In this document: positions 24,712 to 48,261 of the stretch, in pieces
Layout: each line of letters begins with the position of its first letter
Numbering within the stretch: the first letter of the stretch is position 1
DNA from: Rugalucina vietnamica
Lineage: Eukaryota; Mollusca; Bivalvia; Lucinida; Lucinidae
Direction: 5' to 3'
Length of the DNA stretch: 64,000 nucleotides
NCBI GenBank assembly: GCA_964017185.1
Contig: OZ024874.1
Coordinates: 31,968,721 to 32,032,720, forward strand
Made by a program: the position numbers and the translations under genes
Notes under the pieces: generated by a model
Databases searched by the model: none
Told to the model about the DNA's origin: nothing
Seen by the model: only the letters and a program-made list of their open reading frames with translations

Positions 24712-24880
24712 GAAACGAGTTGGTTGGTCCATCGCAGCGTCTGTATTCTGGTCAGATCTATTCTCTGTTCTGGCCCTGTGGGTACCTGATAATGGCTGGC
24801 TTTGCCTACCTGATCCGTGACTGGTCAACTTTCCAGATTATATGTTCGACCCCTGGTGTTGTATTCCTATCATTCTGGGC
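24712..24880 (+). CDS. SLC22 exon 5 (TM5-TM6)
   Basis: Acceptor GTTGCAG|GA, donor GGGC|GTAAGC, phase 2. It encodes NELVGPSQRLYSGQIYSLFW and the LIRDWSTFQ segment between TM5 and TM6, both conserved positions of the family. Confidence 0.93.
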
Positions 24881-25355: not shown

Positions 25356-25574
25356 TCTATATCCGGAATCTCCTAGATGGCTGTATTTCCAAGGTCGCCA
25401 CGAGGAACTAAAAACATTTATCCTGAAAACTGCCAAAGTTAATGGAAGAAAAGTGTCTGCCAATTTCTTCGAAAATTTGCCCATTCCTAGCAAAGAAGAA
25501 GGAAAAGTCGGTTTTCACAAATTATTTTCTCATAGACCATTGGCTGTTCGGACATGTGTTTTATATGTCAACTG
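25356..25574 (+). CDS. SLC22 exon 6 (PESPRWL and cytosolic loop)
   Basis: Acceptor TTCTTCAG|T, donor AACTG|GTAAGT, phase 2. It begins LYPESPRWLYFQGRHEELKT, the family hallmark after TM6, then the central cytosolic loop, and ends in RTCVLYVN at the start of TM7. Confidence 0.95.
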
Positions 25575-26550: not shown

Positions 26551-26648
26551 GATAGCAGTATGTTTGACGACCTATGGTCTGGCACTGAACAGCGATGGAC
26601 TTGGACGGGGAAGCGGAATCCACCTATATTTCGCCCTCCAGTGCTTAA
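26551..26648 (+). CDS. SLC22 exon 7, 5' part (TM7), ends at insertion
   Basis: The acceptor is CTCAATCTAG|G, matching the phase of exon 6. It encodes IAVCLTTYGLALNSDGLG and HLYFALQC, aligning with the YYGLSLNT-type TM7 segment of SLC22 proteins. Coding similarity stops at TTAA (26645-26648), where the inserted element begins. No splice donor lies at the junction. Confidence 0.9.
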
Positions 26649-26692
26649 AGTCTCATTATACTTTCAATCATTTTTTTCAATTTTGATAATTC

Positions 26693-27625
26693 TTGACATG
26701 TTCTAGTGCTTCGTTTGCCGAACATGGATCTGTCGAAAACTTCCCAAATGAATTACTGATAAACCAATTAAAGACTAATGAAAATTTGACAAAAATGAGT
26801 GACAGTGATAAATATATATTTTTGCCCGCCCTTCACACTCGAATTTTATGCGCAAAGGTCTGGAATACCGGAGGTAAATAGAAACACGTGCTAAACTCTA
26901 TTTACGACCAAAAGCAACTCGGAGTTATTAAAATAAACACATTTGAAAGTATGATCGTGTGCATAGACAAATCCTGTTCTTCACTACTTGTCCCATGCAT
27001 TGAAAGGCAATGGTGTGTACCACAAAGTGATATTTTTGTTGTACATATTTAATCGATTCTTGTCGATTTTGATTACGGAGAGGCGACATACGGGGAAATT
27101 AGGAAAGATAATAATAGGCGCGGTGAAAGACCGTTGAAGTACTCAATTTCACATTCTTTAAATGCATTACGTGAACGACGGTGCATTCATCTTTACACCA
27201 ACATCTTGGCCACGTCACATTTCCTCCTGTAGTAATGCTGTATTTTGCGGCCAGCATTCATACGGTGTGGCGCTGCAATAAAATCAAAGAAAACTTTATA
27301 CGTCTACCGCAACAATTCTTAATGCCCCGGGTTAAAAACGAGAATAAGGTTGTCAGTGATCGAGTATGAGCTATGTCGACCCGGGAACATCCAGAACTAA
27401 CCGTGTAAACTAGCTAACCGTCTAGGTTAAGCGCAGTTCCGATTCGCACATGCACACGTCATATACATGTATAAGAATGCGACGCAGCAGGTACTTCTAA
27501 TACGCTACCGTGCATCGGATGTACGTAACGATAAATACATGCAGATCACGAAAAGACGGTGTATGAATGGTGTAGATATCGCTGCTGCTCTTGCAGATCA
27601 TCAAACTACATTTTACTAAGCAATT
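26693..27625. other. Left interior of the 19.3-kb insertion, unassigned
   Basis: Short frames only (for example 26693-26881, MTCSSASFAEHGSVENFPNE...). I see no similarity to transposases or other known proteins. Confidence 0.35.
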
Positions 27626-27631
27626 ACATAT

Positions 27632-27865
27632 GGGCCTTCGCATGAAATAAATTCGTTGTTTTCGACCAGTTTTGACACAAACTGACCTGTACAATCACAG
27701 GAGAAGACTAGAAGCTTGAAATTTGGATTTAAGAAGATGGATAGGGGATAGTACTACCCGTGTAGCGAAAACAAAGGCGCTGATCAGCTGTGCAGTTACT
27801 GCACAGCTGATCTGCGCTTTTGTTTTTGGCATATGCAGATTGTTGATTATGTTATGTGGCGGCTC
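27632..27865. mobile_element. 234-bp MITE, copy 4
   Basis: Exactly 234 bp, with degenerate ends GGGCCTTCGCATG and ATGTGGCGGCTC, the common central hairpin (AGCTGTGCAGTTACTGCACAGCT core) and an ATAT duplication at both flanks (27628-27631, 27866-27869). Confidence 0.85.
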
Positions 27866-28102
27866 ATATAAACCCACTCGTAAGACCTCTTTTGAAACAT
27901 ATGTTTTGAAATTCAATCAATGTTTAAGCGACCAGAATGCCAACTGATCTCGGCCTCAGTACTATAATACTCAGTAATGATAGCATTGGGGTCGATCATT
28001 CTGTAAATATGGCGGCCTAGGACACATACGCCACAGGAACGTTAGAGGCACGTCACACATACCGTCGCAGCTGGAACATTTCACGTCATTGGTCTCAGTG
28101 TA

Positions 28103-28175
28103 TCAAGTCAAGTCAAAATCTCTTTATTCCCTCGTGCAAGGAAAATCTAGGGAGAACAGTATAAGTAGCTCGACA
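28103..28175 (-). mobile_element. 3' end of a LINE
   Basis: On the minus strand the segment reads AGGGAATAAAGAGATTTTGA followed by short TTGAC-type tandem units. This is the usual 3' terminus of CR1/L2-like elements. The rest of the element is not recognisable. Confidence 0.45.
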
Positions 28176-28384
28176 ATGACCCCAGACGGATCAAAGACCG
28201 GATAAGTATCGAAATTGACATGTACATGTCACTGTTACGTGACAGTAGGATATTTACTGGGATTGTATGGACTCACAAGATTTTATGAACATATCCTATC
28301 ATATTATTCATGTATCATGTACGAAAAATAGACCTATACATGGATCTCTGGGAAAAAAGCCTCCGTGGTGTGGTTTTACCTGGC

Positions 28385-28508
28385 AAAACAGGGGTATGTG
28401 CTCAACCCAGAGATCCTTTAGTCCTTCGGATGAGACATTAAATCGAGGTCTCGTCCTCGTACTACCATTGGCTGTTGACTGGGGCGTAAAACACCAAATC
28501 ATACAACC
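28385..28508 (+). repeat. SINE-like tail
   Basis: TCCTTCGGATGAGACATTAA, ATCGAGGTCTCGTCCTCGTA and TTGGCTGTTGACTGGGGCGT are followed by AAAACACCAAATCA, the conserved 3' domain also seen at 38150 and 57915. Confidence 0.65.
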
Positions 28509-28924
28509 CACTGAATGTACATGTTGTACGATTTCTTCGTGTCGCTAAAACTGTCTACATCATTCCATGATTTGGTCTTCCTTTCAAAATGACTTTTCCA
28601 CCCAAACTTTTACTCGTATCCCAGGGGTTCAGCATATCGCTATAAGCGTTTCCTGTTGGTGTGCGGGTTGTATTGCTTCAAATCCTCTACATTTTTATTT
28701 TAATATTATCTCTAAGATGTTTACTTTTAAGGTGTATACTTTTTCATCGAGCGTGTTGAAAACAGAATTGTCACAGGTGCGTAAAAATAAAAACAACAAC
28801 TGATGTTCCTTACGTTCTAAGACAATGAATGAATATCCAGATTTACACTAATGACTACCCAAAATTTCTGTTAAATATACATGTAGGAGTTTTAATTTCT
28901 GAAGTTTGTTAGTTTGCTATGTCT

Positions 28925-29075
28925 GGACGGCCCCAACGCTCCCGGGGTTTTCACCAGTACTCTGGTTTTAATGTGTCTTACTCAAGAACACAACACGGTG
29001 CCACCAGTGTGGATCGAACCCGGGACCGCTTAATCAGGAGTTCGATGCTCTAGCACTACGCCACCGCGGTCCCCT
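28925..29075 (-). mobile_element. tRNA-derived SINE
   Basis: The minus strand begins GGGACCGCGGTGGCGTAGTG (A-box), then CCCGGGTTCGATCCACACTG (B-box), then TTCTTGAGTAAGACACATTA, a motif common in tRNA-headed SINE bodies. Confidence 0.7.
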
Positions 29076-29079
29076 GTTT

Positions 29080-31100
29080 CTGAAGCGAAACAAATAAACT
29101 TTGATGAAGTCTATTGAATGGAAACGTCAGAAATAACCAAGAAATTACTGTAGAAATGTCGACTGACTTCATAGTCGGAAAGCAACGGAGCCGCGCAAGA
29201 ATATTATCAAACATTTGTAACCAAGAGAAACGTTCGAAATTTTTGTGGTCTTTTTTGAATCGACAGACCATCACCTTTCTTTCCACAATTCAAAGTCATG
29301 TTGTGATAGCTTTGCAAAGCTAAAAATATTCAAAGTGACTTTACAACATATCGTCGCATCTATTTATCATAATAAAACATCGATTCAAGCCACTAAATGC
29401 ATCGAAATGTACCATTCAAAAAACTGGAAATGGCTGTCGAAACAAAGCTCATCTTTGATTGTAAATAACTCAGCGTGTGAAATTGCTCCTATTGGCTCAC
29501 CCAGGTCATTAAAAAGTTCAGGGTATCTGCCTTCAAACGATACCAAGGGTTCTGGGCCAGGCTCTGGGGGATTTTTATGTTCCACTATTTACGAAAGGAC
29601 CCCTCTAAAAATGGAACTCTTTTCAAAATGGCAACGAGAGTCAGGCGAAAAACTCAACAAGCCTCCCGCTTGAGTACAGCTATTTCCCTCCCTACAAACA
29701 GAAAGGCAATGGATCAAAACACTTTAAAATGATGTGTTACCTTATTTGTTTTACTTTAATCCAAATGTACAACACGTTTGCTGTTTAAAACACCATTAAA
29801 TCCACACAGTTCCATGTTTTGTTTTTGGTTTCATTTCTTGGAATTGACTGACGTAATCAAGAAACGTCACAGGTTTTGCGCCGATATCGATTGTGTATTT
29901 ATTCGCTTATAAGTTAGCAATTATACTAAATCCAATTGTATTTGGCGAATGTCCACCCAAAAAATCACTCAAAAGAATCACTATACCCTTCTCAGTTTCA
30001 TTTAGGTATGCGCTTCAGGTGGACGGGCACCTGCTAATTAACTGACAGATTAATGGGCGCGCGGGCGAGGATATGTGGAAGGTGTTGTGTTATATATATG
30101 CATGATAATTTAAAAAAAAATGGATTGAAATACTAAAGGGGCTATTGAAGGGTGTTTAGATTTACACATGGTAGAGGGATAGGCCAATGAATTTGGAGTT
30201 TCCGAGAACTTTCAAGGGAGTCTGAACCCCACCCCCATCCCCTTTCAAACATCTTGAGCAATCCCCGGAGTGTACTCCCATATTAAAGCAGTACGGGTAT
30301 GTGCCGCAAAAAAAGCCCCCCTTTTTGAGATTTATTAGCTCTAAAAGCACCCACTTTTTCTGAATGTACCCATTTTTTTCCCACTTCGATCAGCTCTAAA
30401 GGTACAACTTTACCGTTCTTTCTTTTCAACTCTGAAAGCACCCATTTTTTTTTTCAGTTTTATCAGCTCCGTAAGCCCCCCCCCCCCTTTTTTTTTTGTT
30501 TAACCTAGGGCGACACATATATACCAATTTTATATGTGGGTACCCCCACCCCCGGGCCTCTATGATTGACAAGAAGGAAATCGACCGGCATTTACACATT
30601 CGTCTCCTATGGTTAACAGTAGATAACAGAAAAAAAAAGTTGTTGAATGAAGGGTGCTGGGCAAAATGATATTTCTTGTGACTCCATTGCCGTAGAAATG
30701 AGCAGATATTTTACCTTCGATTTTTCCCCAAGCATGAGTCGGGGTGAATGAAAACTTAGAAGGTTGCCTTGGGATATTAAGCAGGGATTTTACCGAAATG
30801 TGTGTCCCTGCAGTGCAGAGTTGTAAGTCGTATGGGGTGACCAAGGCTAGTTGATGCATGGGGTAGGTTGATGCAGTTTCAATAAATCGTCAACGAGGTT
30901 ATCTAAGACATCAGAACTACAAAATAAAGTTGTCCTTTGCTTAATACCATCTTTTCCGGAAGTTTGGTGGGGTTTTAAGAACAATATGAAAATTGTATCA
31001 ACTTGCCCCGATCTGATGAAATGTCTAGTCAACGCATCATCCGTGTAATATAATTATATTCCTTAACCCCATGTTTATGTAATGAAACTGGGTTATACGG
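29080..31100. other. No recognised gene
   Basis: The longest frame (29245-29673, + strand, 142 codons) has no recognisable domain and mixed composition, so I do not call it. At about 30310-30490 there are degenerate repeats of a unit like CAGCTCTAAAGGTAC with T-rich spacers. Confidence 0.35.
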
Positions 31101-31117
31101 GGTATTCAATTTTTTTT

Positions 31118-31185
31118 TCTAATCCAAAACATAGATTGTGGGTACTCGGCGAGACGATTTGAACGTGTACACACAACTGATGTTT
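31118..31185. repeat. AAACATAGAT palindrome, copy 2
   Basis: AAAACATAGATTGTGGGTAC and GTGTACACACAACTGATGTTT are inverted partners, related to 26095 and 43845. Confidence 0.6.
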
Positions 31186-31959
31186 TGTCAAATTTTCAAT
31201 TTTTACAGCTGAGAAAAATCTTTGTATATTTCATGGGCATGTTTTGGAGCTTACCCTAGTGTTACTATACAAAAATGGGGTGTAAGGGGGTATTCAATAC
31301 ACGGACATGTTATCCTGATAAAATTCCAGTGTGTGTGGGGGGGGGGGGGCTCACAACGGTTCTTCTGGGGTGGTTAGCGGCTAGTTGTTCAATCTTTCAA
31401 AGATTGCTAATTACCAGGGTGACGATGTTATGTTCTATAACATCAGCCTAATAAATCGGCGAATTAATCACTTATTCACGGGACAATACACAACTTTGCG
31501 ATATTTATTTCATCTTTGTGCTTCAATTTTGCTTAAGTTTCTACAGAGCATCCCATATCTGTAACAAAACCTTGAGATCTACACACGACTTTAGCTTACA
31601 TTTCAGGGGAAACAACAAATGCGTGACCTGGATTATTTATATACACATTGGTTTCCCCTTCCTATAGACGCTTCTTTTTATAGGCGGATGGACGACGAAC
31701 GGACACCGGAGCATGGGTACACTATAAGCTCACCTTGTGAGCTTAACGGCTAAGGTGAGCTAAAACGAGTCTGGAGATGCCCAATAATTAAAACATGTTC
31801 TGAGGAAAAACTATGTCACCCCAACCGACCAAATCTAACTAAACAGTCTAGTTTGTGCAATTTAGTTGAAATTAGCACAAACATGGCCTAGTGAACTTTC
31901 AGTAATGTTTCTGTTAAAATCCATCCATTGACTGATTCAGAATATATTGTGGCGGAAGT

Positions 31960-31960
<1 letters not shown>

Positions 31961-32032
<72 letters not shown>
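31961..32032. repeat. Poly-T tract (about 72 bases)
   Basis: A homopolymer T run, possibly a retroposon tail on the minus strand. The length is likely unreliable in assembly. Confidence 0.9.
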
Positions 32033-32577
32033 CAGTTTTAAGGGGCGTTTGCAAAGAAAATTAGGTCGAGGCCACCAAAATCTAAATTCTTTCAGCTATA
32101 TTCCAACCATGACTGTATATAGGCTGTGAAAGTTTACTGTCAAAATCCAGACACTGTTCCAAGACATCCCATCAGAAAGAAGCTATGCGGACACCAACAG
32201 GATCAGCACCAGAGATAATATGATCACTCTTCTTTCGGGGTGGAGGGAAGGGGGGACATAATAAGAATATGATACTTCATGTCAAAATTTGGCTTCGACT
32301 GGCAAAGAGGTTTAAGATCTTTTAAAATTGTGGATGACTGCCTATCTAATAAGCTCTCACCTATGAGCCTTTGGTGAGCTTAACTGAGAAAGGAAATGGT
32401 TGATAAGAAATGAAAGAAAACAACAACACATCATTTTATACCAGTTTGAATGTCTGTTGTAATTATGCGCATACATGACATTGGACAATCAACAAAATTT
32501 CAACAAAATCTGGCTGCTTAGGCACAATACGTAGATGCTTGAAATTTCAAATTTGCGCTGCTAAATAAGAACACCAT

Positions 32578-32750
32578 CAATATGCATAGGCAAAATGAAA
32601 GGCACATATCAGCTGTCCAGTAACTGCACAGCTGATCAGCATCTTTGTTATCGTTACAGGTAGTACAACCACTTTTCTTCAATCCAAAATTTCAAGCTTC
32701 TAGCCTTCTTCTGTGATTGCATAGGCCGGATTGTGTCAGACATGGTTGGC
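32578..32750. mobile_element. Degenerate copy of the 234-bp MITE
   Basis: The central hairpin (ATCAGCTGTCCAGTAACTGC, ACAGCTGATCAGCATCTTTG) and the AAATTTCAAGCTTCTAGCC block are recognisable. The terminal repeats have decayed. Confidence 0.65.
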
Positions 32751-35140
32751 AGCGAAGACAGTCGAAATGTACTAGTACTGAGACAGAAATAGCTCAGACG
32801 GGCATACAATGAGATATGGTTGTCTGATGGGTGAGAAAAGTTCAACTGTTATCCCAAAGGGTTAAGTTCAGTTCTCATTTTGCCATGAATCAATCTGCAA
32901 ACATTGAAGAAATTGTATGAATAACATTAATTCTTTATCACTATGAATGGCTTTAGAAATACATAACATTTGAGTTGTCTCCCTTCCAATTAAACATTGA
33001 AATTTGTTGTTGTTGGTTCCTGGTGCGTTTTTTCTTATTATTGAGAATGTAGCTGTTATCTGTTTTTGAGGATTTTAATTTTTGGATTGGAATGTGTGCA
33101 CATGCACGAAGCATTCCCATTGTTTTTCATCAACAGAATAATAAGAAAATGACAATTATGTACAAGACAACCAATGCTTATTGAATGAAGACAGCTACAT
33201 GTATACCTTACAATTTGACACAACATACAATCCTCAACATGTCTTATTTAAGAACAAAGGTGTGCAAAAAGTGTTAACAACAAATATATTTTATATTATG
33301 AAACTTTTGAAAACAATCATTTTGCAGTATACTTGATATGCACCATGAAAACAGTGTGAAAGTTTTATTTTACAATGCACCGTAAGGAAAATACACATGT
33401 AAATTCTGGTATGCTGGGTCACAATCTTCTCCATTACTTAGTACTTAGTAATGATACATCTTGTTCCTGGGTTTATTTGCATAATGCATCTTTGGTACAA
33501 CCATGGCAGGTGAGAAGTATATGTCAACCAACAAACTTTAACCCTCCTCTGTCTTCTTGGCCTAAAAATAAACAGGGAATAACAATTTTTATGCAATTTG
33601 TCATGTAGCTCTGTCTCATATATAGCCCTGAATTTAAAATTACCAATGCACACTCTTCGTTAGAATAAAGTATCATTAGGAAAACACTTTCGAGTAATAC
33701 CCACATTTTTCTTGCAGCAATAAAAATTTTCTTTTCGTCTGTTTCAATTTTCTTTTTTTTTGCTTCTGATCATATATTGAACAGCCACCATGACATTACA
33801 GAGACATATTCCAATGAATATATGCATTAACAGATTCTTGTAAGTACAACTAAATTAATTGAACTTTGCAAAAACAATGCAAACCCTCAAGTATCTTTAT
33901 GTTTCTCATAATAATGAAATCTGAATTGATATTTGTATGCTTAAACTCAGATCTAATAATCCTGGATATGTAACTACTGTGAATGTATGGTATTTATTAG
34001 AAATATGTTGTCTTGGCTAGGTTGTCAAATCTGTAATTGATAAGTTGACAAGCTGATAATTCAATTATATGAGCAAATATCCAAGATTATTTTTTTTATT
34101 AAGCAATAGCTTTAATATATTAAAATCAAGCAAAGACAACATAAATTGACATTTGCTTTAGTGCCATATCCAGGTTATTTTAGATCTGAGGTATAATACA
34201 CATGTATATTAAAAGAAAATTGCATGTTAAACATACAAACAATTCAGATACCATCACTGACTTACCTGCATAGGTTTTGTTTGTTAATGTATTGGGCAGT
34301 GGTGGCTTCATCTTAGCTTCCTGTTCAAATGGGGTGGTGGTGGCTGTTCATTTGATGTTCGGCATGAACTCCTTGTTTTACTAAAATCAGAATAAAAATC
34401 ATATAGCATCCGACCACAGAATTAAACAGTCATGGTATCACAGTCAACAACTGGAAGTTTGTAATTTAAAAACAAACAAAAATGATAATTAATGACACTT
34501 GCAAAAATGGTAATGATAGCAGAAATTCTGGTTATGGGGGGTACAGGGGTGTATAGAACATCAGGTGTTAGGTGGGGTTGGGGTTGAGCAAACATGCTGA
34601 CGGGAAAATTGCCCATAATCAATATTCTGATCAAAATGTCTATTTATTTCACTGAAAATTTTCATTTTTTTTACAGCAGAAAAAAATATTGCATGACCAA
34701 GTTATCAAAGTTATCATAATATTAAAATATGATGACATATGTAATGAGTCATTGTAAGTTGTAGCCCCACCCTACCAGCCTGCTGCACCCCCCCCCCACA
34801 CACACACATATATGGATACTACTGGGTAGAGTGGGGATATCCAGATTAAAGTGCAATCACTTTTTGTCCCTGCAGCGGCAGTGCAGGGAAGATGCCAGGT
34901 TTTTACAGTATTATCCTTACCCCAATGAGGCAGGGCAAAGATCATGGGTTTGACCTCAAGTGTCTCCTGAGACAATGGGGTTGACTTATTGCAGGGCACC
35001 GAAAACTGGAATGTCATAATCCCCGCCCTTCCCCACAGTTTAGGGTGGAGGGGCATGTTCCTATTTGTGTAGAAAATTACGCTTGGCATTTCGCAGAGTA
35101 ACTTGAGATGATGATCAGAAATTGATCGCCTCAGTATATG
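32751..35140. other. No recognised gene
   Basis: This is AT-rich interior of the 19.3-kb insertion with short frames only. Confidence 0.35.
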
Positions 35141-35149
35141 AAGATATAA

Positions 35150-35268
35150 AGTGGAGCGGACTGATGCAGGGGTAGAGTGGTTGATTCCCGTCTTGGCGGT
35201 CCCAGGCTCAATCCTCAGCTGGGGCACTTTTAGTTGTGGCCTTGAGCAAGTCACATTTTCCACAGCTC
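35150..35268 (+). mobile_element. tRNA-derived SINE
   Basis: GATGCAGGGGTAGAGTGGTT (A-box-like), CCCAGGCTCAATCCTCAGCT (degenerate B-box) and GTGGCCTTGAGCAAGTCACA (SINE body motif) in order. Confidence 0.55.
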
Positions 35269-35279
35269 CTAAGGTTATG

Positions 35280-35576
35280 CACCAGTCATTTGTAAACACT
35301 GCACCCCCCCCCACACACACACACCTAGGGAAAGGGTGGGGGAAATTAACAGGGCTGAAGTGCGGGGCAATTACTTTTCAAGTGTCCCGGCAGTGCATGC
35401 GAAATAACGGGGTTTGACATTAAGATCTTTACCCCAAAGAGATTTTCTACTGCGAAGGGCGGTTTTGACCTCCAGTTTGCCCCCTGGGTGGGGCTCAGAG
35501 CAGAGACCTGAAACTGAAAAGTCATAATCGCTGCCCTTCCCCGTAGGTGGGGGAGCAGTGGTTACAAATGACTGGT
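35280..35576. mobile_element. MITE-like element with CACCAGTCATTTGTAA ends
   Basis: The left end ACCAGTCATTTGTAAACACT is mirrored by AGTGGTTACAAATGACTGGT. Between are C- and G-rich runs. Same family as 44900; a fragment is at 10650. Confidence 0.7.
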
Positions 35577-36406
35577 TCATAATGGTCAGAAATTGATTGA
35601 CTCAGTAAACGGTAAAGAAAAAACAAAACAAAAATGTCTGACTTGGCAATGCTGCGCGTCAATGTTGACCGATCGGATGTCATTTCTTTCCAACAAAGAT
35701 TTTGAGAAATATTTTGGAAAGTGCAGAACAGTAGTCGAATTAAACTCTTCTGAGAATAACGCTGTAAAACAACACTGAATGGCTTTATCGTGTTTATTCC
35801 ATTTCTTACCACTTTTGTGGATTCTTTCTTTCCCAGGTGTTGTCAAACTTATCGATTTTGTTTTTTTACACATTCCGGAAGCTCAACTTTGATGACGATT
35901 TCCTCAATAAATTGGACTTCTCCCGCGTAGCTACTCAGCTATAAGACGGACTAGAGTTTACACTTCGAGTTTTTGATAAATGTTCCGTTATTCCTTCTGG
36001 GGGATTTTTTTGTTTCATTATTTTCAAAGACATGTCTCTCAAGATAATAATTTTCGAGAACTCAGGTGCTTCTTTTCCCATTGCATTTAGATAGCGTTCC
36101 TTGATCTGTTAAAGTTAAAAATGTTAAAAATAGATGTAAATAGGATTGAAAAAAGTAAACAAATATCAAGACAGAACTGACACTTCAAGTTACTCGCAAA
36201 ATAAAGCCCATAAATTAGGGAGATTTTCGCGCCATTTTCATGACGCCATTTTGAAGGGATTATTTTTTGACGCGCTTGGTGACGTTTTGTAAATACTTTC
36301 ACAACTTTTGACGTCGTTGCCGTTCGACTATCAATCAACAGAGAAAATATCAATATCATTCCATTGGTGAAAACACTATTTTTTATAAAAAATATAATTT
36401 TGTTAA

Positions 36407-36900
36407 AGGAATAGGCCCACAAACTATTGTGTGTGCGTTTTATGAAAGCCTTCATGTAGCTGAACAGTTTGCAACAAATTTTATGAAAATCAACCAAGGT
36501 CTAAGAAAATTATAGGGATTTGAAAATTTTGATGGCCCAAATCCAGAACGAGGCTATGAGGGTATGACGTCACTCCCTCACAATCATGGAATTGTAAATA
36601 TGTGCCATTTCCATGCATATTAAAGTATGAAAGTTGTTGAAATACTTTTCATCCACTTAATAGAATCATACTGATCTGTTTTCAAATGTAAAAATTAAGT
36701 CTACTACTGTAAATAAGCATTTTTCCTTTTTGGTCACGTGACTGGCTAAACAAAATGGCGGCCACCATAGGCGGCCATTGTTGAATATTAAGACTTTCTT
36801 CAAAACCACTTAACCGATTTTAATAAATGTGGTGTCAAAATGTTTGTTTCGCTGATCTCTTTCTTTTGAAATGAAGTATAATGTTTGTAAACCTATTCCT
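36407..36900. mobile_element. TTAA-flanked MITE (494 bp)
   Basis: TTAA flanks both sides (36403-36406, 36901-36904). The ends AGGAATAGGCCCACAAAC and GTTTGTAAACCTATTCCT form imperfect inverted repeats. The ends differ from the 19.3-kb host insertion, so this is a different TTAA family. A TA duplication is an alternative reading. Confidence 0.75.
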
Positions 36901-36927
36901 TTAATATCTTCATTGACTTCACTGCTA

Positions 36928-38077
36928 CACTCCCGCTTGTGTAATTGTACTCATTGAATGCGCGTAACATACGTGGGTAATACTCGCGTAATACGCGCCT
37001 CTTTCATACGCGTATGTGTCAATAGCCAGTCAAAATTAAATTCTTCTTACGCATGTGATACGCGTAATGCGCGTACATTACGCGTAATGACTTTATCCAA
37101 TGAGCGGTGAAATAGAAAAGCAAGTCATTACGCGTATTTGGAGTATATACGCGTAATATATACGTATTGTTTAACCCATCGAGAGTTAAAGTCTTACGTA
37201 AAAACTACGCGTAATATACGCGTAATGAATGAGTCAATAATCTTGTGATTGTATTGTTAAACCCAAATCCCGGTTTTGCTTTAGACCAAAACAATATCAA
37301 ATCATTTTGAAACTAAGACCTGCAGTATTAACGGCCTCGAACACTTCATGAATGCAAAATAACATGTAACAGATCTCCCCCATTAGAAATATTTTAAAAG
37401 CTTCATAACATGCATTATATCGTTCGGTAGTGACTCTAAAAATAGAGGAGGAACTCCACAGCAATGAAAAAAAAATGAATAAAACTGAACATGGCTACCT
37501 ACAATTTACTTAGTGTCTTATTTATCTGTCCACTTGTCTTCCCGAGAAGCTTAAAATCTAAAATAATGTTCCTCACTTCGATATTCATGTTGATTGTTTT
37601 CGCCATCTTGGGTTCAATGAATTTCCGATTTACTTTGAACGAAATTTAACTCACTCGTTAACACGTTATCTTAGGGTCACAGCTACATAAAACATTTTGA
37701 CAATAACTTGAATAAGGTCACACCATTTTCACGATCACGATAAAATCCATTAAACCTGCACATTTTTATTTTCGATGGAATAATAAAATCAACCGTTATG
37801 TACTTAAGCTTTTATACTCGTTGTCATTACGCGTATGATACGCGTAAATACACGTAGACGTATTGCCTATCTGATTGGCCGATACTTCATACGCGTAATG
37901 ACTGAACCTTTCGCGCATCGACGCATTTATCTCTGCTTATGAATATTAATTAGATATGTTACGCGTAAATGCGCCCATAGTTACGCGTAAATGCGCGTAA
38001 TTGGTCTTACGCACGTAATACTCACGTAATACTCGCGTAATACGCGTAAATGGAGTACAAATACGCAGGCGGGAGTG
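36928..38077. mobile_element. TA-flanked element rich in ACGCGTAA motifs (1,150 bp)
   Basis: The ends CACTCCCGC and GCGGGAGTG sit inside TA dinucleotides (36926-36927, 38078-38079). For about 250 bp inside each end the sequence is packed with TACGCGTAA and CGCGTAAT variants, palindromic around ACGCGT, in both orientations. The central 500 bp lacks them. Non-coding. Confidence 0.82.
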
Positions 38078-38149
38078 TAAGTTAAATCTTGTAAAAGATA
38101 GATCCGTTGGAGCTCGGTCACTGACGAGACTCAAGTAGCCGAAAACATG

Positions 38150-38310
38150 GTATGGTGCAGTGGTTATGTCACTCGCCTTGTAAACCAGGGGGTCGCAGGT
38201 TCGACCCCGGGCTTCTCCAGCCCGTTGGATGGGACTATAAACCGAGGTCCCGTCTCCATATGACCTTAGCTGATGGTGTGACGTTAATCCCCAATCGACC
38301 AACTTTCTCA
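38150..38310 (+). mobile_element. tRNA-derived SINE, near complete
   Basis: TGGTGCAGTGGTTATGTCAC (A-box) and GTCGCAGGTTCGACCCCGGG (B-box) are followed by the body GGACTATAAACCGAGGTCCC and ATGACCTTAGCTGATGGTGT. This links the tRNA head to the tail motif found elsewhere as fragments. Confidence 0.75.
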
Positions 38311-38369
38311 TTAATATGTTCACTGCTCTTAAAGGGTCTCTGTTTACATTTTCATTGCTGCGTTCTAAC

Positions 38370-38853
38370 AATTTCGTCACGGTGCAGGCAGGTGGGTCCC
38401 GGTTTTATTTCCGAATCGGTAGAACCCGATGTTAAACTGGTTGGTTCTTAAGGGTGTCGAGTCATGCAACGGTCTTGTGCTGGTGTTTCACGTTGTTGAA
38501 GAAAGTAGCAACCACTGAGATTCACGGGGTGAACCGGGACTCCAACGGATCCAAAACGGGCTTCAAGGTAGGAAAACTTTTAAAGGCCCCTGTTCATTAA
38601 GGTGGAATCCCGGTGAAGGCCCGGTTTGTGTCGAATGGCACGGTGTCGTCCCATTTACCCACAGTTTACTTTTGATCATCCCGGTTTATCATGGTCGAAC
38701 CCCGGTGGTATAACGTTTTGCACTCGGTGTCGCCCATGGCCAGTTCTGCAACGGAATTTCCCGGCTTGCCACGCATGTCTACGGTGACGTTATGGTTCTA
38801 CTCCGGTTCAACACGAGTCATCCTGGTTAACCGTAAATAATCCAGGACTGTGA
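38370..38853. repeat. CCCGGTT-rich repeat, left of LINE
   Basis: Spaced CCCGGTTT/CCCCGGT motifs with AACC blocks. It ends GGACTGTGAGAACA, which resembles GGGACAGTGAGAACA at 43490-43506 on the far side of the LINE. Confidence 0.55.
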
Positions 38854-41800
38854 GAACATAGCTTATAATAATAATAATGTCTTTATTTAAAGAGGATGAC
38901 ATATTTAGTACAAAAACTAATCTCACATATGGTCCTCTGAAGAGTAAAACATATATGAATATGGTTATATACATATGTACAAAATATGATGTCTGGAATA
39001 CCTATCAAAATATGTACACTTTTTGCTCTTAAATGAGGCATAGAATTAAAATGAAAAATACAACTTAAGGACACTCAGATATATCTGTGATTACAGATTT
39101 GAGGTAATATGTGATTCATCGTGAGTACAGGAGACTTTTGATCCATACAGAATTTAAAAAATATATCATCTTTATAAGTGCATGACTAGTGAAATTTTCT
39201 AAATAAAACCATTTTTCACCATAACCATTTATATTTATTGACCCCTGATCGACAGGCAGGGGCCACATTGGTGTTTACTTGCTAATTGAGTTGAGGAAAG
39301 ATACTGGGTGTCCTCAAGTATAAAAAGCTGTCCCGTTGAATGAATGATACAAATTAAAATAGAACTGAGAGACTCATCGATGGCATGCGTTAGCAAGCTG
39401 TCTGGCTGGGTGGTTTCCCTACCTAGGTCGTTGCTACCGAAAACCTCCAATAAATCTCTAAGCCCTATGTTTGCAGTCAGCTAGACTGTGTCCAGCAACC
39501 GCGAGCAACAATACAAAACATGAAATAACATGCAATATCAAAGTGGGGACAACAATACAATTATACTAGTAATATAGCAAGATCCAGTCAAGTTTGAGAA
39601 CATGAAGAGACCAAGGGGTTGATATACAATTTAACCTGCGTGTATTTGCCAGTCGGGACAGCGGTAATGTGGCGGAAACCAATGTCCAGACAGCATACCA
39701 CTGCCCCAAAAGTTACAAGTAAGTGCTTTGTGACTGGGTATGTGTGCAACATGTTTATGCCTCGTTAAATGGTTTACTTAATATTTCATCGCGACGTTTT
39801 GAATAGGTTTAAACTTGTTGATGTTCTATAGTATTTGCCAATCGGGACAGTGGTAGTGTGGCGGAAACCAATGTCCAGACAGCACACCACTGTCCCAACA
39901 ATTATAGATATGTGCTTTATGGCTGGCTATGCATGCAACGTAGTCTATGTCTCGTTAAGTTGTTTATTTAAATAGTATTTCTTTACAGACGTTTTGAAAG
40001 TGGCAAGACTTGTTGATTTTCTAATTTCTAGTGGCAAAGCATTCCATAGTTTTGGACCCGTGACAGAAAAAGATTTTTTATAATATGCCGTTCGTGCAAA
40101 TGGAACTTTCAGAATTTCCTGTTCACTAGAACGTAAATTTCTAGTGTTTGTTTCAGAAGATTTCGTAAGAAGGCTTGATAAATACTCAGGGGCTTGGCCA
40201 TTAAGAGACTTAAAAACCATAATGCAAATATGATATTCCACTCTGTTAGTAAATGTAAGCCAGCCTAGCTCTCGGAACATTTCTTTTGATGGTGTCATGA
40301 AGTCTGCTTGAAGAATAATTCGCGCTGCTCGTTTCTGTAACTTTAGCACTCTGTTGATATTGTATGTTGAACACTGTCCCCAAATCATGCAGCCGTAGTC
40401 AAAGATAGGTAGAATATAGGAGTTATAGTAAAGTTTAAGATTGGACATGTCCACATATTTGGATAGTAGTTTTAAAAGAGTTATTCGTCTTGTGATATTA
40501 AGACAAACAGAGTCGATTTGTTTATCCCAGGAGAGCGTTTTATCGATGATTATCCCCAGCAGTTTTTGGTTGTCAACGTTTGAGATATCTTCATTATCAA
40601 TTGTAATATTTAATTTATCATAATTGGATAAATTTTGCCTACTTCCTATAGACATAGAAGATGTTTTGGTTAAGTTTACAAACATTTTGTGTACAACGCA
40701 CCAAAATTTGAAATCAGTTGAACTACCCTGGAGTTTTACTTGAACAACATTTTGGTCTTTATGAGCTGTATGTGCAGTTGTATCATCCGCATAGATTTCG
40801 GCATATGCCTCATTGATATATAAAGGCATGTCATTAATGAAAATAAGAAAGAGCACAGGGCCGAGTACAGAGCCCTGTGGCACACCAGATGTAACTTGCT
40901 GGAAAGAAGAGGTTGCTGTTTTATCTACAATGCATTGTCTTCTATTTGTCAGGTACGATGTCATCCATTCCATAGTGCGATTGTCAAATTTGTGGGACTT
41001 AAGTTTCTTTAGTAAAATTTCATGGTCAACAACATCAAATGCTTTTCTTAGGTCAAAGAAAACTGCGCCTGTGAGTTCTCCTTTTTCAATATTTTTCAGC
41101 CATTTGTCTAATAAGCCTAGTAATGCAGTATTGCATGAATGATTTTTTCTAAACCCTGACTGAGACTTGTGTAGGATGTCATACTTTTTTAGATAGGCGA
41201 ACAGGTGCTTTGTAACATGTTTTTCAACTATTTTAGATATTACTGGGAGAACTGAGATAGGGCGATAATTTGAAGGGTCCGATTTTGTACCTCCTTTATG
41301 AATCGGTTTGATTTTGGCAAGTTTAAGTGATTCCGGGAATTGGCCATTGATCAGGCTTAAATTTATTATTTCTAACAGAGTTGGTGCTACTGTTTCGGCT
41401 GATGTCTTCAAAATTCTAGGAGTAATACCATCGAGACCTGTAGCTTTTGTTACATCAAGCGACTTCAAAGATGTTATGAGATTGGTCATTTTCATGAGAG
41501 GGATGCCAAACTGGACTGTATTTGGTATTTTAGTTTTTATGTAATTATCAAGAGTACTTGTCTCAAACTGTGGATTGTCTTGTGGGTTTTCAGTCTTAAG
41601 TTTATCACTTATTGTTGAAAAGAAGGTATTCAGGCATTCTGAAATAATGTGTGGATCAGTCGTAGAATTTCCGTTTACTGTCAGTTCATCGGGAAGCTTA
41701 TTTTCTTTTGATTTACCATTTATGTCTTTTATATGTTTCCATAAATATGTATTGTCTTTATTTTCGGCAATTGACTTTGCAAAAAAACCTTTCTTTGAAG

Positions 41801-43348
41801 TACGTATCAACTGTATGGTTTTATTTCGCCAATGTTTGTACTGAGGCCAGTTTCGTGACTTATGGTACATATCTCTCTGTTTACTAGCAAATTTGATATC
41901 CTCGTTAAACCAGTCTGGTTGAGATTCTTTTTTCACCCGCTTTGTCTTGATTGGGGCATGCTTGTCAAAAACGGTCATAAAGGTTTGGATAAAGGTTTCA
42001 AAATTTTGATCCGAGTCCACAGGAGAAATATTGATATTTGTCATAGTGTCTGTCATATCTGAGAGAAAATGTTCTTCGTTGAAAGCCTTATATGACCGGT
42101 ATTGTATCGTTGTATGCATATTTCGTTTAATGTTAGATTTTCCGGTAACACGTGTAAATTGTATAGGAAAATGGTCACTAACTGCAATATTAGGTACCGA
42201 TAAATCAACAACTAGATCAGGTTTGGATGCATAAAGATGGTCTATGATTGTTGAGGAATTAGCTGTGATTCGCGTTGGTTCTTTGATAAGCTGTTTTAAG
42301 TCATTAATTTCCATTGCATGTTTCCATTTAGTGTTGCATAATTGTTCATCTTTTATATCTATATTGAAGTCACCCATGAGATAAATTTCATCGGTGAAAG
42401 TAAGCGATTTTTCGATCTGTCTTGAAAATTTATCTGTCCATTCTGTTGGAGATGAAGGTGGACGATAGGCCGAACATACTAAGAAGGAATTTGATTGTCT
42501 TATTTTGACTTCAATCCAAATAGATTCTACGTCCGACGTTTCAATGTCGTTTCTTCTAACATAGTCAAGTCCCTCTCTTAAATAAATAAGAATGCCCCCG
42601 CCATTATTGGATGAAATTTCTGAACAATCTTCTCTATCTTTTCGTTCGTGTGTATATCCATTAACATGAAGTGTTTCATCATTTATTGCTTTGTTCAAAA
42701 ATGTTTCACAAACGCCGAAAATATCAACAGCAGATCCTTGTAGCATAATTTTTACTTGATCAAGTTTAGGTTTTAGGTGACGGATGTTAAAGTTTGCTAT
42801 ATGGACGCCCCTACGACTAAATTTGAACTCATTTAGAAAATCTTGTGACACAGTTGTTATATTGCCGTCGTCATGGTTTCTACACGCTATGTGTTCATTT
42901 GAATCGCGACTTGTGTTTGAGGATTCAGAATGTGTGCTGTTTGTAATATTATTAGTTGTTATGTTGCCAGGGACATTTTCTTGAAGCTGTACGGTATTGG
43001 ATATTGAAGAGCATGTTTTTTGTTGATTCGAGTTGTTACATTGTGGGTCATTGCATTCACTGCATAGCCAGCTTAGCAGATGATATTTGGCATTTGACAG
43101 GTCCCCAGACACTAATTCCTAATGTCTATTGTTACCTCTGATGTTGTGTCTGTTAATCACCTGCTGATTACGTTTTTCTGATGGGTTTATTCCTTGGAAA
43201 GAAGAAAAGTGTCTACTGGGGAGAATTGCACAGGCCCCGTTTATATTATGTACTAGTTTTTGTATCCCAGGGAATCTGAGATTTGTCATGTCAGCATGGT
43301 AAAGGTAGCTTGGCAATTCGCCTGAGGCTAATACAAAAGAGTCAAACA
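38854..43348 (-). mobile_element. CR1/Jockey-group LINE, about 4.5 kb
   Basis: The minus-strand 3' end is an AATAAAGACATTATTATTAT tail at 38860-38885. The coding frame is 39945-43112. The 5' limit is inferred from the flanks: GTGAGAACA on the left and AAACATCTTCCAAACACCG on the right recreate GTGAGAACAGGACC...AAACATCTCCCAGACACCG of the repeat at 43496-43536. No obvious target duplication. It lies inside the 19.3-kb insertion. Confidence 0.8.
39945..43112 (-). CDS. LINE endonuclease-reverse transcriptase, uninterrupted
   Basis: The frame of 1,055 codons (counted from a GTG; the true start is uncertain) has no stop or shift. The N-terminal APE-type endonuclease shows NFNIRH, VCETFLN (catalytic Glu), SAYRPPSS, LMGDFNIDI (Asp/Asn) and AVSDHFPI (Asp-His). 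The reverse transcriptase shows KPIHKGGTKSDPSNYRPISV, FFDLRKAFDVVDH (first Asp), SGVPQGSVLGPVLFLIFIND and AEIYADDTT (YADD). The C-terminal part has SYILPIFDYGCMIWG and LQKRAARIIL, usual for CR1/Jockey-group elements. All catalytic motifs are present, so it could encode an active enzyme and must be fairly young. Confidence 0.95.
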   Translation of the reverse strand: MSGDLSNAKYHLLSWLCSECNDPQCNNSNQQKTCSSISNTVQLQENVPGNITTNNITNSTHSESSNTSRDSNEHIACRNHDDGNITTVSQDFLNEFKFSRRGVHIANFNIRHLKPKLDQVKIMLQGSAVDIFGVCETFLNKAINDETLHVNGYTHERKDREDCSEISSNNGGGILIYLREGLDYVRRNDIETSDVESIWIEVKIRQSNSFLVCSAYRPPSSPTEWTDKFSRQIEKSLTFTDEIYLMGDFNIDIKDEQLCNTKWKHAMEINDLKQLIKEPTRITANSSTIIDHLYASKPDLVVDLSVPNIAVSDHFPIQFTRVTGKSNIKRNMHTTIQYRSYKAFNEEHFLSDMTDTMTNINISPVDSDQNFETFIQTFMTVFDKHAPIKTKRVKKESQPDWFNEDIKFASKQRDMYHKSRNWPQYKHWRNKTIQLIRTSKKGFFAKSIAENKDNTYLWKHIKDINGKSKENKLPDELTVNGNSTTDPHIISECLNTFFSTISDKLKTENPQDNPQFETSTLDNYIKTKIPNTVQFGIPLMKMTNLITSLKSLDVTKATGLDGITPRILKTSAETVAPTLLEIINLSLINGQFPESLKLAKIKPIHKGGTKSDPSNYRPISVLPVISKIVEKHVTKHLFAYLKKYDILHKSQSGFRKNHSCNTALLGLLDKWLKNIEKGELTGAVFFDLRKAFDVVDHEILLKKLKSHKFDNRTMEWMTSYLTNRRQCIVDKTATSSFQQVTSGVPQGSVLGPVLFLIFINDMPLYINEAYAEIYADDTTAHTAHKDQNVVQVKLQGSSTDFKFWCVVHKMFVNLTKTSSMSIGSRQNLSNYDKLNITIDNEDISNVDNQKLLGIIIDKTLSWDKQIDSVCLNITRRITLLKLLSKYVDMSNLKLYYNSYILPIFDYGCMIWGQCSTYNINRVLKLQKRAARIILQADFMTPSKEMFRELGWLTFTNRVEYHICIMVFKSLNGQAPEYLSSLLTKSSETNTRNLRSSEQEILKVPFARTAYYKKSFSVTGPKLWNALPLEIRKSTSLATFKTSVKKYYLNKQLNET

Positions 43349-43349
43349 T
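43119..43349 (-). CDS. Upstream LINE frame, same phase, separated by one TAG
   Basis: This 76-codon frame (MFDSFVLASGELPSYLYHAD...) ends with TAG and is in phase with the main LINE frame, which continues ELVSGDLSNAKY. It may be the end of ORF1, or the start of the polyprotein with a single nonsense mutation. It has no zinc-knuckle or other recognisable motif. Confidence 0.45.
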   Translation of the reverse strand: MFDSFVLASGELPSYLYHADMTNLRFPGIQKLVHNINGACAILPSRHFSSFQGINPSEKRNQQVINRHNIRGNNRH

Positions 43350-43570
43350 CTTCCAAACACCGTTTGATTAATACAAATGTGACGGCTCGCCAGTAAACCC
43401 CGGTTCGTCCCTGTATGCCAAAGATTTCCACGTTTGCGTCACGGTTTATCCCTGTCAGTTGACGCGGTTCATTCCACTTTACAGCGTAAAACGGGACAGT
43501 GAGAACAGGACCAAAACATCTCCCAGACACCGCCTGTCCAACTTTTAGCTGAATCATCCTGAACTTAACT
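43350..43570. repeat. CCCGGTT-rich repeat, right of LINE
   Basis: It contains GGGACAGTGAGAACAGGACC and AAACATCTCCCAGACACCGC, near-repeats of the sequences abutting the two LINE ends. This supports insertion of the LINE into this repeat. Confidence 0.55.
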
Positions 43571-43844
43571 TTGGTTGGTATCTGATTGAAGTCGCTCATA
43601 ATCAGCCAACATCGTCTTCGGTGCTATGTTCGTTATCCTTCCCGTGTACTCCGGCATTAGACTTTCTCCTACTGTGTAAGTTGGCAACGTCTTTTGTTTG
43701 AAGGCTTTGCCTACAAGCATAATTTTAATAACAGTAATAAATTTTAAGATCAGGAGACATATCCATGACAAGTATAAGCCAAAATCCCTAACTTTACGTT
43801 GTAAAACCGGGGTATGCAGATGTTTACATGTTTTTAATACCAAA

Positions 43845-43916
43845 CATAGATTTTGTTTACTCGTTAGAACAGCCTCGGCGAGGCGGCTCTAACGTGCACA
43901 AACAATCTATGTTTTA
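43845..43916. repeat. AAACATAGAT palindrome, copy 3
   Basis: AAACATAGATTTTGTTTACT...AGAACAGCC and GGCGGCTCTAACGTGCACAA followed by ACAATCTATGTTTT form near-perfect arms around CTCGGCGAG. Confidence 0.75.
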
Positions 43917-43919
43917 AGC

Positions 43920-44588
43920 AAAATTATTCAACATATCAAATTTTTCTATGAAATTTTCATTTTTTACAAATGAAAAAAAAAGAATCACTGTATATTGGAT
44001 GGGCAAGTTTTCGTAACGATAAGGTAATCTTTTGCAAACTAGCATAATTAGTGGTAGTGGGCAAGTCTGCAGCAAGAGCTAGGCACGGTAACTACTTCCG
44101 CCGTGTAGTGTTCTTCAACGAGGCACTTGATAAAGCTTCGCATATTACTGGTTGACACCCGAAAACCGCTGGCGTCGTCCCAAGATGACTGAAACATTGT
44201 TGATAGTGGTGTGAAGCCATAGCCAAACCAACGCTGATGTTACCTACTCTCAAAAATTGTGAGTGAAGGGTATTTTAGGCCGCACACGAAATTATGACAT
44301 TCACTTTCTCTGACTTTTTTGATGTTGCTGCTGCTTTGCTTTTAAAGCGAAATGTTTGTTTTTCTTTAATGAATGCTTATGTCTTGCAACATATTCCAAA
44401 AAACTTGAGAAATTGCAGATTTACCTTGCCTGCGTTCGTTTGTATTGAGGTTTAACATTTTCTAGCCGCTTCAAACAAACTATCATCATTTGATTATGGG
44501 TCGCCAGCAATATTGCGAAACTAATCTTGTAGACTAAATTCAAAAGATTAAGAATGAAAATGAGAGAAAGCCACGTTAGCAAAACATT

Positions 44589-44589
<1 letters not shown>
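43920..44589. other. No recognised feature
   Basis: Non-coding sequence within the 19.3-kb insertion. Confidence 0.35.

Positions 44590-44647
<58 letters not shown>
44590..44647. repeat. (GA)n microsatellite
   Basis: A dinucleotide run of about 57 bp. Confidence 0.97.
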
Positions 44648-44650
<3 letters not shown>

Positions 44651-44689
44651 ATTCCACCCCAAGAGTTCATATCACGACTCCAAATGATT

Positions 44690-44760
44690 GGAAGAAGTCC
44701 AATTAAATGGAGGCACCGTCCCGACATGACCATAGCTATTGAATGTGACGTATTGGATAT
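44690..44760 (+). repeat. SINE-like tail fragment
   Basis: GTCCAATTAAATGGAGGCAC, CGTCCCGACATGACCATAGC and TATTGAATGTGACGTA match the tail family of 57915. Confidence 0.6.
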
Positions 44761-44899
44761 ATTGCGTGAGAGTGAAAATAGGACTTACATCTGGGCCCTC
44801 TTGATAGGCATTGACAGTCTCTGTGTCCGATTTTCACTAACAATGCCTAAAACGATAAAAGCATAACATGGAATATTACGTGAATGCATTGTTGTTATG

Positions 44900-45176
44900 C
44901 ACTAGTCATTTGTAACCAGGGCCCTAACTCTTAACCCCGGTGAATAGCGGGGACCTTGACGTTTGGTCCAGCAAATTCCTGCTAAAAGCCACCCTGTGGG
45001 GACTGCTAGTTGGTAAAACCACTGCTGTTTTCCCCCGTTGCCTGCTATATTTTCATTTCACCGACCTTTATGCCTACATAAAGCAAACCCCAGATATTTC
45101 CCCCACGCCGCCGTGGCCAAACTTTGGTCAAAGCCCCGCTCATATTCCGGGGGAGCGTGGTTACAAATGACAAGAG
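44900..45176. mobile_element. MITE-like element with CACTAGTCATTTGTAA ends
   Basis: CACTAGTCATTTGTAACCA is mirrored by GTGGTTACAAATGACAAGAG. Internal C/G-rich blocks as in 35280. Confidence 0.7.
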
Positions 45177-45179
45177 CAT

Positions 45180-45960
45180 TACTGGCTATGGGCACAGTGT
45201 GATGATCTGTGATTATCGATAAAAATCTCAAAGTACAGCTCGACACTTGTTATTATTAATGGTTTTTTTGAGAAGCGAATTCTTGTCTTAAGTAGACATA
45301 CCCCACTGTGAACCTCAATTAAAATTAATGTACATGTACATGATAATAAAATCATGTTCTTATACCACTTTCAATTGTTACAATCATGTCTAAATTTGCA
45401 TGGTGGACAATGTGCGATTCAACAGATTTATATCCACGTCCATTTATGGGGCATCTTGGCTCTTTAAGCAGGATGCACAAAGCTAAAAGCATTCAATATA
45501 CATGGGTTATTCTTAGTTTTATACATGTTTGATAAACAGAACTGAGACTGAACCCTTACCACATGTCTAGAAGTTTTGAAGACGCCTCGTCATGGGACCT
45601 CGCATAATATTCCTCCTCTTCCCTAAGCTTCTCCTCCATATCCCGTTAAAGAATCACTGACTTCTATTATTGCCTCCACACTGACGAACCGCTCATGGAT
45701 ACATGTTGTTTATATTTTAAAGATGACGCGAGACTATTTGAGTGCGCAAGCCTACTACGTTTCCACGCCTCTAGTCACGCCTTTAACTCATTTTAATAAT
45801 TTGGCTTAAGACGAAAAATGTAAATGAAGCAAAATTAAGGTATTTCCCTTAATTTTAGCTCAAATTAAGGCGCGTAAATGAGAATTGTAATGCCCATGTT
45901 TAGGCACCATTTTAGCACGAAACTTATAACCCAAAAAAATATTTTTCACATATAAAATTG
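45180..45960. other. Right interior of the 19.3-kb insertion, unassigned
   Basis: No coding similarity is visible up to the right inverted repeat at 45959-45980. The region at 45800-45890 has short repeats of AAATTAAGG. Confidence 0.35.
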
Positions 45961-45984
45961 ATTGAAAGTATAATGAGACTTTAA

Positions 45985-46119
45985 TGGACATACCGGCCTG
46001 CATTATTGTTTTAGTTTTAGCAGACAGAACTGGACGAAAACGCCTAATGATTGCTAGTATGCTGACAGGGGGATTGACATGCATTGGAACCATTTTTACG
46101 ACACTTTATGGGGGGAAAG
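45985..46119 (+). CDS. SLC22 exon 7, 3' part (TM8-TM9)
   Basis: Coding resumes directly after TTAA with DIPACIIVLVLADRTGRKRL, the conserved TM8 and loop 8-9 signature, followed by TM9. The donor is GAAAG|GTATCA, phase 1. There is no acceptor or pyrimidine tract at 45984, so it is not an independent exon. With the 5' part at 26551 and one TTAA it makes a 233-bp exon in phase with both neighbours. Confidence 0.92.
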
Positions 46120-46420: not shown

Positions 46421-46429
46421 TTTACGTCG

Positions 46430-47160: not shown

Positions 47161-47186
47161 GTTTTTAGTTATTTTGCCCAATGCAG

Positions 47187-47449
47187 GTGCGATATCGACC
47201 TCCGCGGCTTTCTTGTCTCTTATAAATATACCTCGAAGACCGTCAATAATTTTGCCCATAATTACAGCGGCATATGTATCAACCCTAGTTCTGGCTCTCA
47301 CTGGAAAGTTCGGAGCAGCTACTGGCTTTCATCTGATATACCAATATTCTGCCGAACTATTTCCTACTGTTGTACGGAATTCTGGCATGGGCTCTTGCTC
47401 CTGTATGGCAAGAATCGGAGGAATTGTAGCCCCTTTGGTCGCCGATCTG
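47187..47449 (+). CDS. SLC22 exon 8 (TM10-TM11)
   Basis: Acceptor CAATGCAG|GT, donor GATCTG|GTAAGA, phase 0. It encodes AISTSAAFLSL..., the GKFGAATGFHLIYQYSAELF segment before TM11 and VRNSGMGSCSCMARIGGIVA, all strongly family-typical. Confidence 0.95.
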
Positions 47450-47932: not shown

Positions 47933-48084
47933 GATCGTCTTGTGGGTGGAAGTATTGGAAAGGCGTTACCACTGCTAGTGTTCGGTGTAATTTGTGTTAT
48001 TGCTGGTCTCCTGATATTTTTACTTCCTGAAACAGCTGGCAAAGAGCTCCCAGGAACCATTCAGGATGGTATACAGTTCGGACG
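47933..48084 (+). CDS. SLC22 exon 9 (TM12)
   Basis: Acceptor TTTATTTACAG|G, donor GACG|GTAACA, phase 2. It encodes TM12 and the closing LLPETAGKELPGTIQD motif. Confidence 0.95.
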
Positions 48085-48261
48085 GTAACATTTAGATTGC
48101 ATTTTAAATACACGTTTTCAGTTTTACATTGATAATCTGGGTCCCCTCGAGTTGAGCCTATAGTTTTCAACGCCCACGATACATTAGATACCAACCATTC
48201 TACATCTCAATTTCAAGACATGAAGGCAGTTTTTTTTTTTATAAAAGTGTTTTCTTTTCAG

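Follow-up and report, generated by a model that had tools for sequence, protein, structure and literature searches.

The DNA analysed here, a 64,000-nt window of the genome of the lucinid bivalve Rugalucina vietnamica (assembly GCA_964017185.1, contig OZ024874.1, positions 31,968,721 to 32,032,720), carries an SLC22-type transporter gene whose seventh exon is split by a 19,340-bp insertion bounded by TTAA. The insertion is most probably a non-autonomous Kolobok-like TTAA element, enlarged to 19.3 kb by other mobile elements nested within it. Coordinates below are those of the window, unless a chromosome or contig label (C1, C2, etc.; L039) is given.

The split exon and the ends of the insertion

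The host gene has nine exons, spanning 16357-48088. When exon 7 is rejoined at a single TTAA, it and the eight other exons give one 553-residue frame running from ATG to TAA; the introns are GT-AG, plus one GC-AG.

16357..16499, + strand: SLC22 exon 1, with the ATG (homologue alignment, joined frame)
16856..17075, + strand: SLC22 exon 2 (gene model, joined frame)
17452..17555, + strand: SLC22 exon 3, with the GC donor (gene model)
18465..18619, + strand: SLC22 exon 4 (gene model)
24712..24880, + strand: SLC22 exon 5 (gene model)
25356..25574, + strand: SLC22 exon 6 (gene model)
26551..26648, + strand: SLC22 exon 7, 5′ part (gene model and assembly search)
45985..46119, + strand: SLC22 exon 7, 3′ part (gene model and assembly search)
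47187..47449, + strand: SLC22 exon 8 (gene model)
47933..48088, + strand: SLC22 exon 9, with the TAA (gene model, joined frame)

Exon 7 is interrupted at the TTAA at 26645-26648, and coding resumes past the TTAA at 45981-45984. Across the join the protein reads FALQ-CLMD-IPA, where the closest homologue (P0001) has FFLQCLMDIPG. Assignment to the SLC22 type rests on TIGR00898 (E 2.6e-92; 310 bits, below the curated cut-off of 551) and on homologues found with a 505-residue query that leaves out exon 1: the five best cover 100% of it, three of the five are named organic cation transporter protein-like, and identity is 62% for P0001, the nearest, followed by 51% for a Ruditapes philippinarum protein. 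The intron between exons 7 and 8 contains a tandem repeat of about 148 bp (46421-47161), which ends just 5′ of exon 8.

The insertion itself is delimited as follows:

26645..45984, no strand assigned: whole insertion including both TTAA copies, 19,340 bp (end match and copy comparison)
26645..26670, + strand: left TTAA and 22-bp terminal inverted repeat, 5′-AGTCTC... (pattern search, window and genome)
45959..45984, - strand: right 22-bp terminal inverted repeat and TTAA (pattern search, window and genome)

TTAA and the adjoining 22 bp are perfectly identical between the two ends, in inverted orientation, and the match extends to 31 nt with one mismatch. With up to three mismatches allowed, this end sequence occurs just twice in the window, namely at the two ends, and is absent from 100 shuffles. 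A second inverted pair, at 27.7 and 32.7 kb, was rejected as an end pair; it consists of two copies of one dispersed repeat.

A Pfam scan of the 19.3 kb (six frames, read as two halves, with stops as X) found no transposase; the only matches above cut-off were the endonuclease and reverse transcriptase of one non-long-terminal-repeat (non-LTR) element. Five weak matches (Atrophin-1, DUF3915, SIR4_SID, EOS1, and PDXDC1-like) all fell below cut-off. Searches of the window with Rfam (gathering threshold) and for tRNAs gave no match. Other non-LTR-like reverse transcriptase or endonuclease frames were seen by eye outside the insertion, at 5478-7971 and 53017-53631.

An earlier note on this stretch, made from its letters, had described an SLC22 exon that breaks at a TTAA and resumes at another 19.3 kb on, with the same sequence of at least 22 bp inverted inside each, a phase restored by rejoining at one TTAA, and no visible transposase. 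All of this is borne out by the searches above.

A carrier family and its nested elements

The genome searched was the 1.09-Gb assembly containing the window. With the first 200 bp of the insertion as query, 40 of 227 candidates were scored, and all 40, the window included, matched at 94-100% identity. The 26-bp end occurs 142 times at no more than one mismatch (77 forward, 65 reversed), against none for a reversed-pattern control. One hundred of these 142 places, all exact, were listed, and the pairing and distance figures given here rest on them. Pairing the 22-bp end genome-wide had been proposed in the earlier note; within 60 kb it gives 31 neighbouring pairs that are correctly ordered and 3 that are not. 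Since the ends pair genome-wide, the idea that two unrelated short elements happen to lie at the two ends was rejected. The 31 units span 6,144-32,957 bp (median 7,374), with 25 of them below 10 kb; the window unit is the third longest. The remaining 38 listed ends have no partner among the exact ones. On C2, four same-strand ends (64500851, 64589203, 64686228, and 64774604) are spaced about 88-97 kb apart, which may reflect a tandem segmental duplication that includes the element.

These units have more than their ends in common. One non-coding body, referred to here as the carrier, is present in 11 other copies (9 read whole, 2 in part), the simplest of which, on C2, is 6,504 bp long. The main comparison used eight units from seven other regions (C1, C2, two on C5, C7, C8, C13, and C16); all eight, read end to end, have the same body and the same ends as the window copy. 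TTAA is present at both ends in the window and in seven of the eight, the eighth having TAAA on the left, while the AG...CT termini are found in all nine. The ends of the family can be written AGTCTCATTATAC, with termini 5′-AG...CT-3′.

Three further units contain the carrier body together with other insertions. The one on C3 (78182262-78215218), read whole, is an older 33-kb unit with body pieces 85-90% identical and two copies of long frames resembling those of long-terminal-repeat (LTR) retroelements inside; those at C7:45.57 Mb and C4:61.49 Mb were read in part (10,000 of 10,620 and 10,000 of 13,557 bases). All three were considered as an autonomous partner and rejected, having the same body and further insertions. 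A transposase relic in the carrier body was rejected likewise, as the six frames of the 6.5-kb C2 copy gave one weak, sub-threshold Atrophin-1 match.

Compared with these copies, the window copy resolves into 6,557 bp of carrier body, in pieces, and three nested insertions (7,155, 1,150, and 4,478 bp):

26645..29170, + strand: carrier body piece 1, common to other copies (copy comparison)
29171..36325, + strand: nested 7,155-bp DNA element, terminal inverted repeat TAGTCG.., target site duplication TCA (copy comparison; ends and duplication by eye)
36326..36927, + strand: carrier body piece 2 (copy comparison)
36403..36904, no strand assigned: miniature element, AGGAATAGG.., flanked by TTAA and lying within the carrier body; ends Kolobok/T2-like (pairing at 13 of 16 terminal bases)
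36928..38077, + strand: nested 1,150-bp TA-flanked element, CACTCCCGC..GGGAGTG (copy comparison)
38078..38865, + strand: carrier body piece 3 (copy comparison)
38866..43343, - strand: nested 4,478-bp non-LTR retrotransposon (copy comparison and genome matches)
39945..43118, - strand: open frame of 1,057 codons in the non-LTR element, with endonuclease and reverse transcriptase (open reading frame and Pfam)
43344..45984, + strand: carrier body piece 4, to the right end (copy comparison)

The junctions of the two larger insertions are peculiar to the window among the matches scored. For the 7.2-kb insert, one of 40 scored matches crosses the junction, the window itself; 3 of the others lie on the carrier side and 36 on the insert side, one of these reaching 29 bases beyond the junction at 91%. 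Similarly, the junction of the 4.5-kb insert is spanned by one of 40, again the window, with 27 others on the carrier side and 12 on the insert side. Each of the two inserts has a family of its own elsewhere in the genome. Several relatives of the 7,155-bp element start at the same base and several end within 2 bp of its end. Of the 4,478-bp element, four other copies are complete and a fifth is 2 bp short, at 99-100% identity; one more match is full-length at 92%.

The 1,150-bp element has a different distribution. Its site is filled in the window and in the copies at C7:19.06 Mb and C7:45.57 Mb; elsewhere it reads as a single TA (C16), TA-CATG-TA (C5, C8, and C13), TA-CATG-CA (C1), or TA-CATTTG-TA (C2). 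Footprints left on excision are Tc1/mariner behaviour, and the simplest reading of these states would be an empty site, a filled site, and sites from which the element was excised with a footprint. Because it occupies the same site in three copies, this passenger seems to have travelled with the carrier.

Superfamily of the carrier

Duplication of TTAA is a property of both piggyBac and Kolobok elements, and so does not separate them. In the portion of PMC9587614 available, Kolobok termini are given as 5′-RR and YY-3′, in contrast to piggyBac, and the ten full-length Xenopus Kolobok rows in the available part of PMC6004289 have left ends beginning with AG and lengths of 6.8-13.9 kb. Since the AG...CT ends of the carrier fit 5′-RR...YY-3′, Kolobok-like would be the better label, as judged from these termini; Sola3, another TTAA candidate, may be an alternative. 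KolobokP was considered and rejected, as the two end regions of the window copy share no direct repeat.

Kolobok-type elements do exist in this genome, which has 19 neighbouring pairs of THAP and P2RX7_C matches within 25 kb. One pair (L039:2048-8067) forms a unit of 6,020 bp flanked by TTAA; its ends are AGGATTCTAGAA, pairing at 13 of 16 terminal bases, and it contains both a THAP exon and a P2RX7_C match. Kol0-type Kolobok elements with long open transposase frames are also present, four of them at nearly equal THAP-to-P2RX7_C spacing. A DDD/E transposase with THAP and H2CH was found in none of the six frames of either the window copy or the 6.5-kb C2 copy.

Age and growth of the insertion

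Divergence among the carrier copies points to a recent origin, as the earlier note had supposed. Over the columns represented in at least 5 copies of an eight-copy comparison (C5b omitted as a near-duplicate of C5), 27 of 6,540 columns show a substitution private to the window copy, or 0.41%. Between the non-LTR insert and its best-scoring other copy there are 20 substitutions and one gap over 4,478 positions; split equally, this would be about 0.22% per branch. Across 6,576 columns, two units on C5 (37829320-37835889 and 37844592-37851166) are distinguished by just one substitution and two gaps; they lie inverted to each other at different TTAA sites, with 8.7 kb between them, and their flanks have in common only a dispersed repeat some 300-500 bp off. 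By its sequence, the pair is an apparent recent local transposition, and such near-identity at different sites indicates that the carrier family moved very recently.

In the preferred account a long non-autonomous Kolobok-like cut-and-paste element would have inserted at the TTAA of exon 7, duplicating it, with a length on landing of about 7.7 kb, provided that its sole load at that time was the inherited 1.15-kb passenger. The 7.2-kb DNA element and the 4.5-kb non-LTR retrotransposon would have inserted later into the window copy, on its private branch, bringing it to 19.3 kb; growth probably followed landing rather than preceding it. As no transposase was found with carrier-family ends, the family would be moved in trans by one that recognises the 22-bp ends. 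The insertion is about three times the founding length through nested insertions, and is ordinary in kind. The earlier note had offered either a giant or composite unit that moved with cargo or a small element that grew; the nesting fits, while a giant unit is not needed, and the founder was not small: it measured 6-7 kb, or some 7.7 kb in the lineage leading to the window copy.

For the host, the allele carrying the insertion has presumably lost its function. The remark that the gene shows no other decay is correct for its frame and splice sites, but carries little weight as evidence of function: at 0.41% on the private branch about 7 substitutions are expected in some 1.66 kb of coding sequence, few of them stops, so that an intact frame fits a recent loss.

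Several observations weigh against parts of this account. The 233-nt joined exon 7 has two matches in the assembly, both of them the halves in the window; a second allele or paralogue there was rejected accordingly, and no empty site was found, so that divergence is the sole ground for calling the insertion recent. The junction searches scored 40 of 194 candidates for the 7.2-kb insert and 40 of 89 for the 4.5-kb insert, and the list used for pairing covers 100 of the 142 end places. The scored relatives of the 7.2-kb insert never match it unbroken: those spanning the stretch near position 2,070 are interrupted there, most of them by an additional 0.8 kb or so, or more, with a 7-base overlap, and the window copy is uninterrupted. 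Around the 100 listed ends, neither an autonomous copy nor a transposase element with carrier-family ends was found. The Kolobok transposases of the genome are never inside units bounded by these ends; all 57 Kolobok-type matches are outside the paired units, the nearest 15.3 kb from an end (a broken fragment with a stop, on the outer side of an unpaired C7 end) and the next 388 kb. The same is true of all 126 THAP matches (nearest about 196-197 kb) and all 56 P2RX7_C matches (nearest about 265-266 kb).

Alternatively, nesting may have come before landing, and an element already loaded with the 7.2-kb and 4.5-kb inserts at its donor site could have jumped into the exon as one 19.3-kb unit. Both inserts fit within the private branch (0.41% for the carrier, about 0.22% for the non-LTR element), and either could therefore be older than the landing; the 1.15-kb element, for one, seems to have been a passenger that the carrier took along. 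Against such a jump, no other copy has either junction among the scored matches, most paired units are below 10 kb, and the window's two larger inserts are in none of the long copies that were read; on balance we think it unlikely. If it did happen, a 7-kb DNA element and a complete non-LTR retrotransposon would have travelled as passengers when a transposase acted in trans on the 22-bp ends, and the carrier family would spread other mobile elements besides itself.

The earlier note had pointed to piggyBac transposons as duplicating TTAA, and a non-autonomous element of that type is another candidate; piggyBac transposase genes with long open frames are also present in the genome. This reading is difficult to sustain, and we consider it quite improbable: the AG...CT ends match the Kolobok rule that the available part of PMC9587614 sets against piggyBac, and no piggyBac transposase (PF13843) is near the listed ends, all 31 places (40 listed matches, with neighbours merged) being at least 217 kb from them. 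It is also conceivable that the insertion is spliced out or skipped and that the SLC22 gene still works, as all other exons and splice sites are intact and the frame, read on into the element, has 12 further open codons after the TTA codon (by eye). We find this very doubtful, since an intact frame is also expected under recent loss, and inspection of the extreme ends by hand, without a splice predictor, turned up no GT-AG pair that would preserve the frame. An assembly artefact joining two unrelated loci can hardly be entertained. It has no support in the sequence, and is opposed by the exact TTAA duplication, the exact restoration of frame, the identity of the ends to a genome-wide family, and the lack of any N in the window.

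A non-autonomous Kolobok-like element enlarged by nesting thus remains the preferred explanation, and one that needs no new kind of mobile element. The locus is a clean, datable case of the recent breaking of a coding exon by a DNA transposon. The family, with its long non-coding carriers, its passengers, and a passenger site in three states, is well suited to studying how non-autonomous TTAA elements can enlarge while continuing to move.

Among known systems, Kolobok and its non-autonomous relatives, such as the T2 miniature inverted-repeat transposable elements (T2-MITEs) of Xenopus, resemble the carrier in TTAA duplication, in 5′-RR...YY-3′ ends, and in the mobilisation in trans presumed for non-autonomous members. 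The carrier differs in having no transposase or KolX match (window copy and C2 copy scanned), in a 6-7 kb body of unrelated non-coding DNA, and in a terminal repeat, AGTCTCATTATACTTTCAATCA, of its own. KolobokP of bivalves, as described in the available part of PMC9587614, is alike in its bivalve hosts, TTAA, RR...YY ends, and short inverted ends; its long direct repeats at the termini, of about 450 or 660 bp, have no counterpart between the two ends of the window copy, and neither a transposase nor a His-Me nuclease was found in the carrier. PiggyBac, in its giant form Teratorn (PMC5601938, from the part available), shares the TTAA duplication and a large unit, but the ends of the carrier are not of the piggyBac kind and it has no transposase; its length comes from nested repeats rather than from a viral genome.

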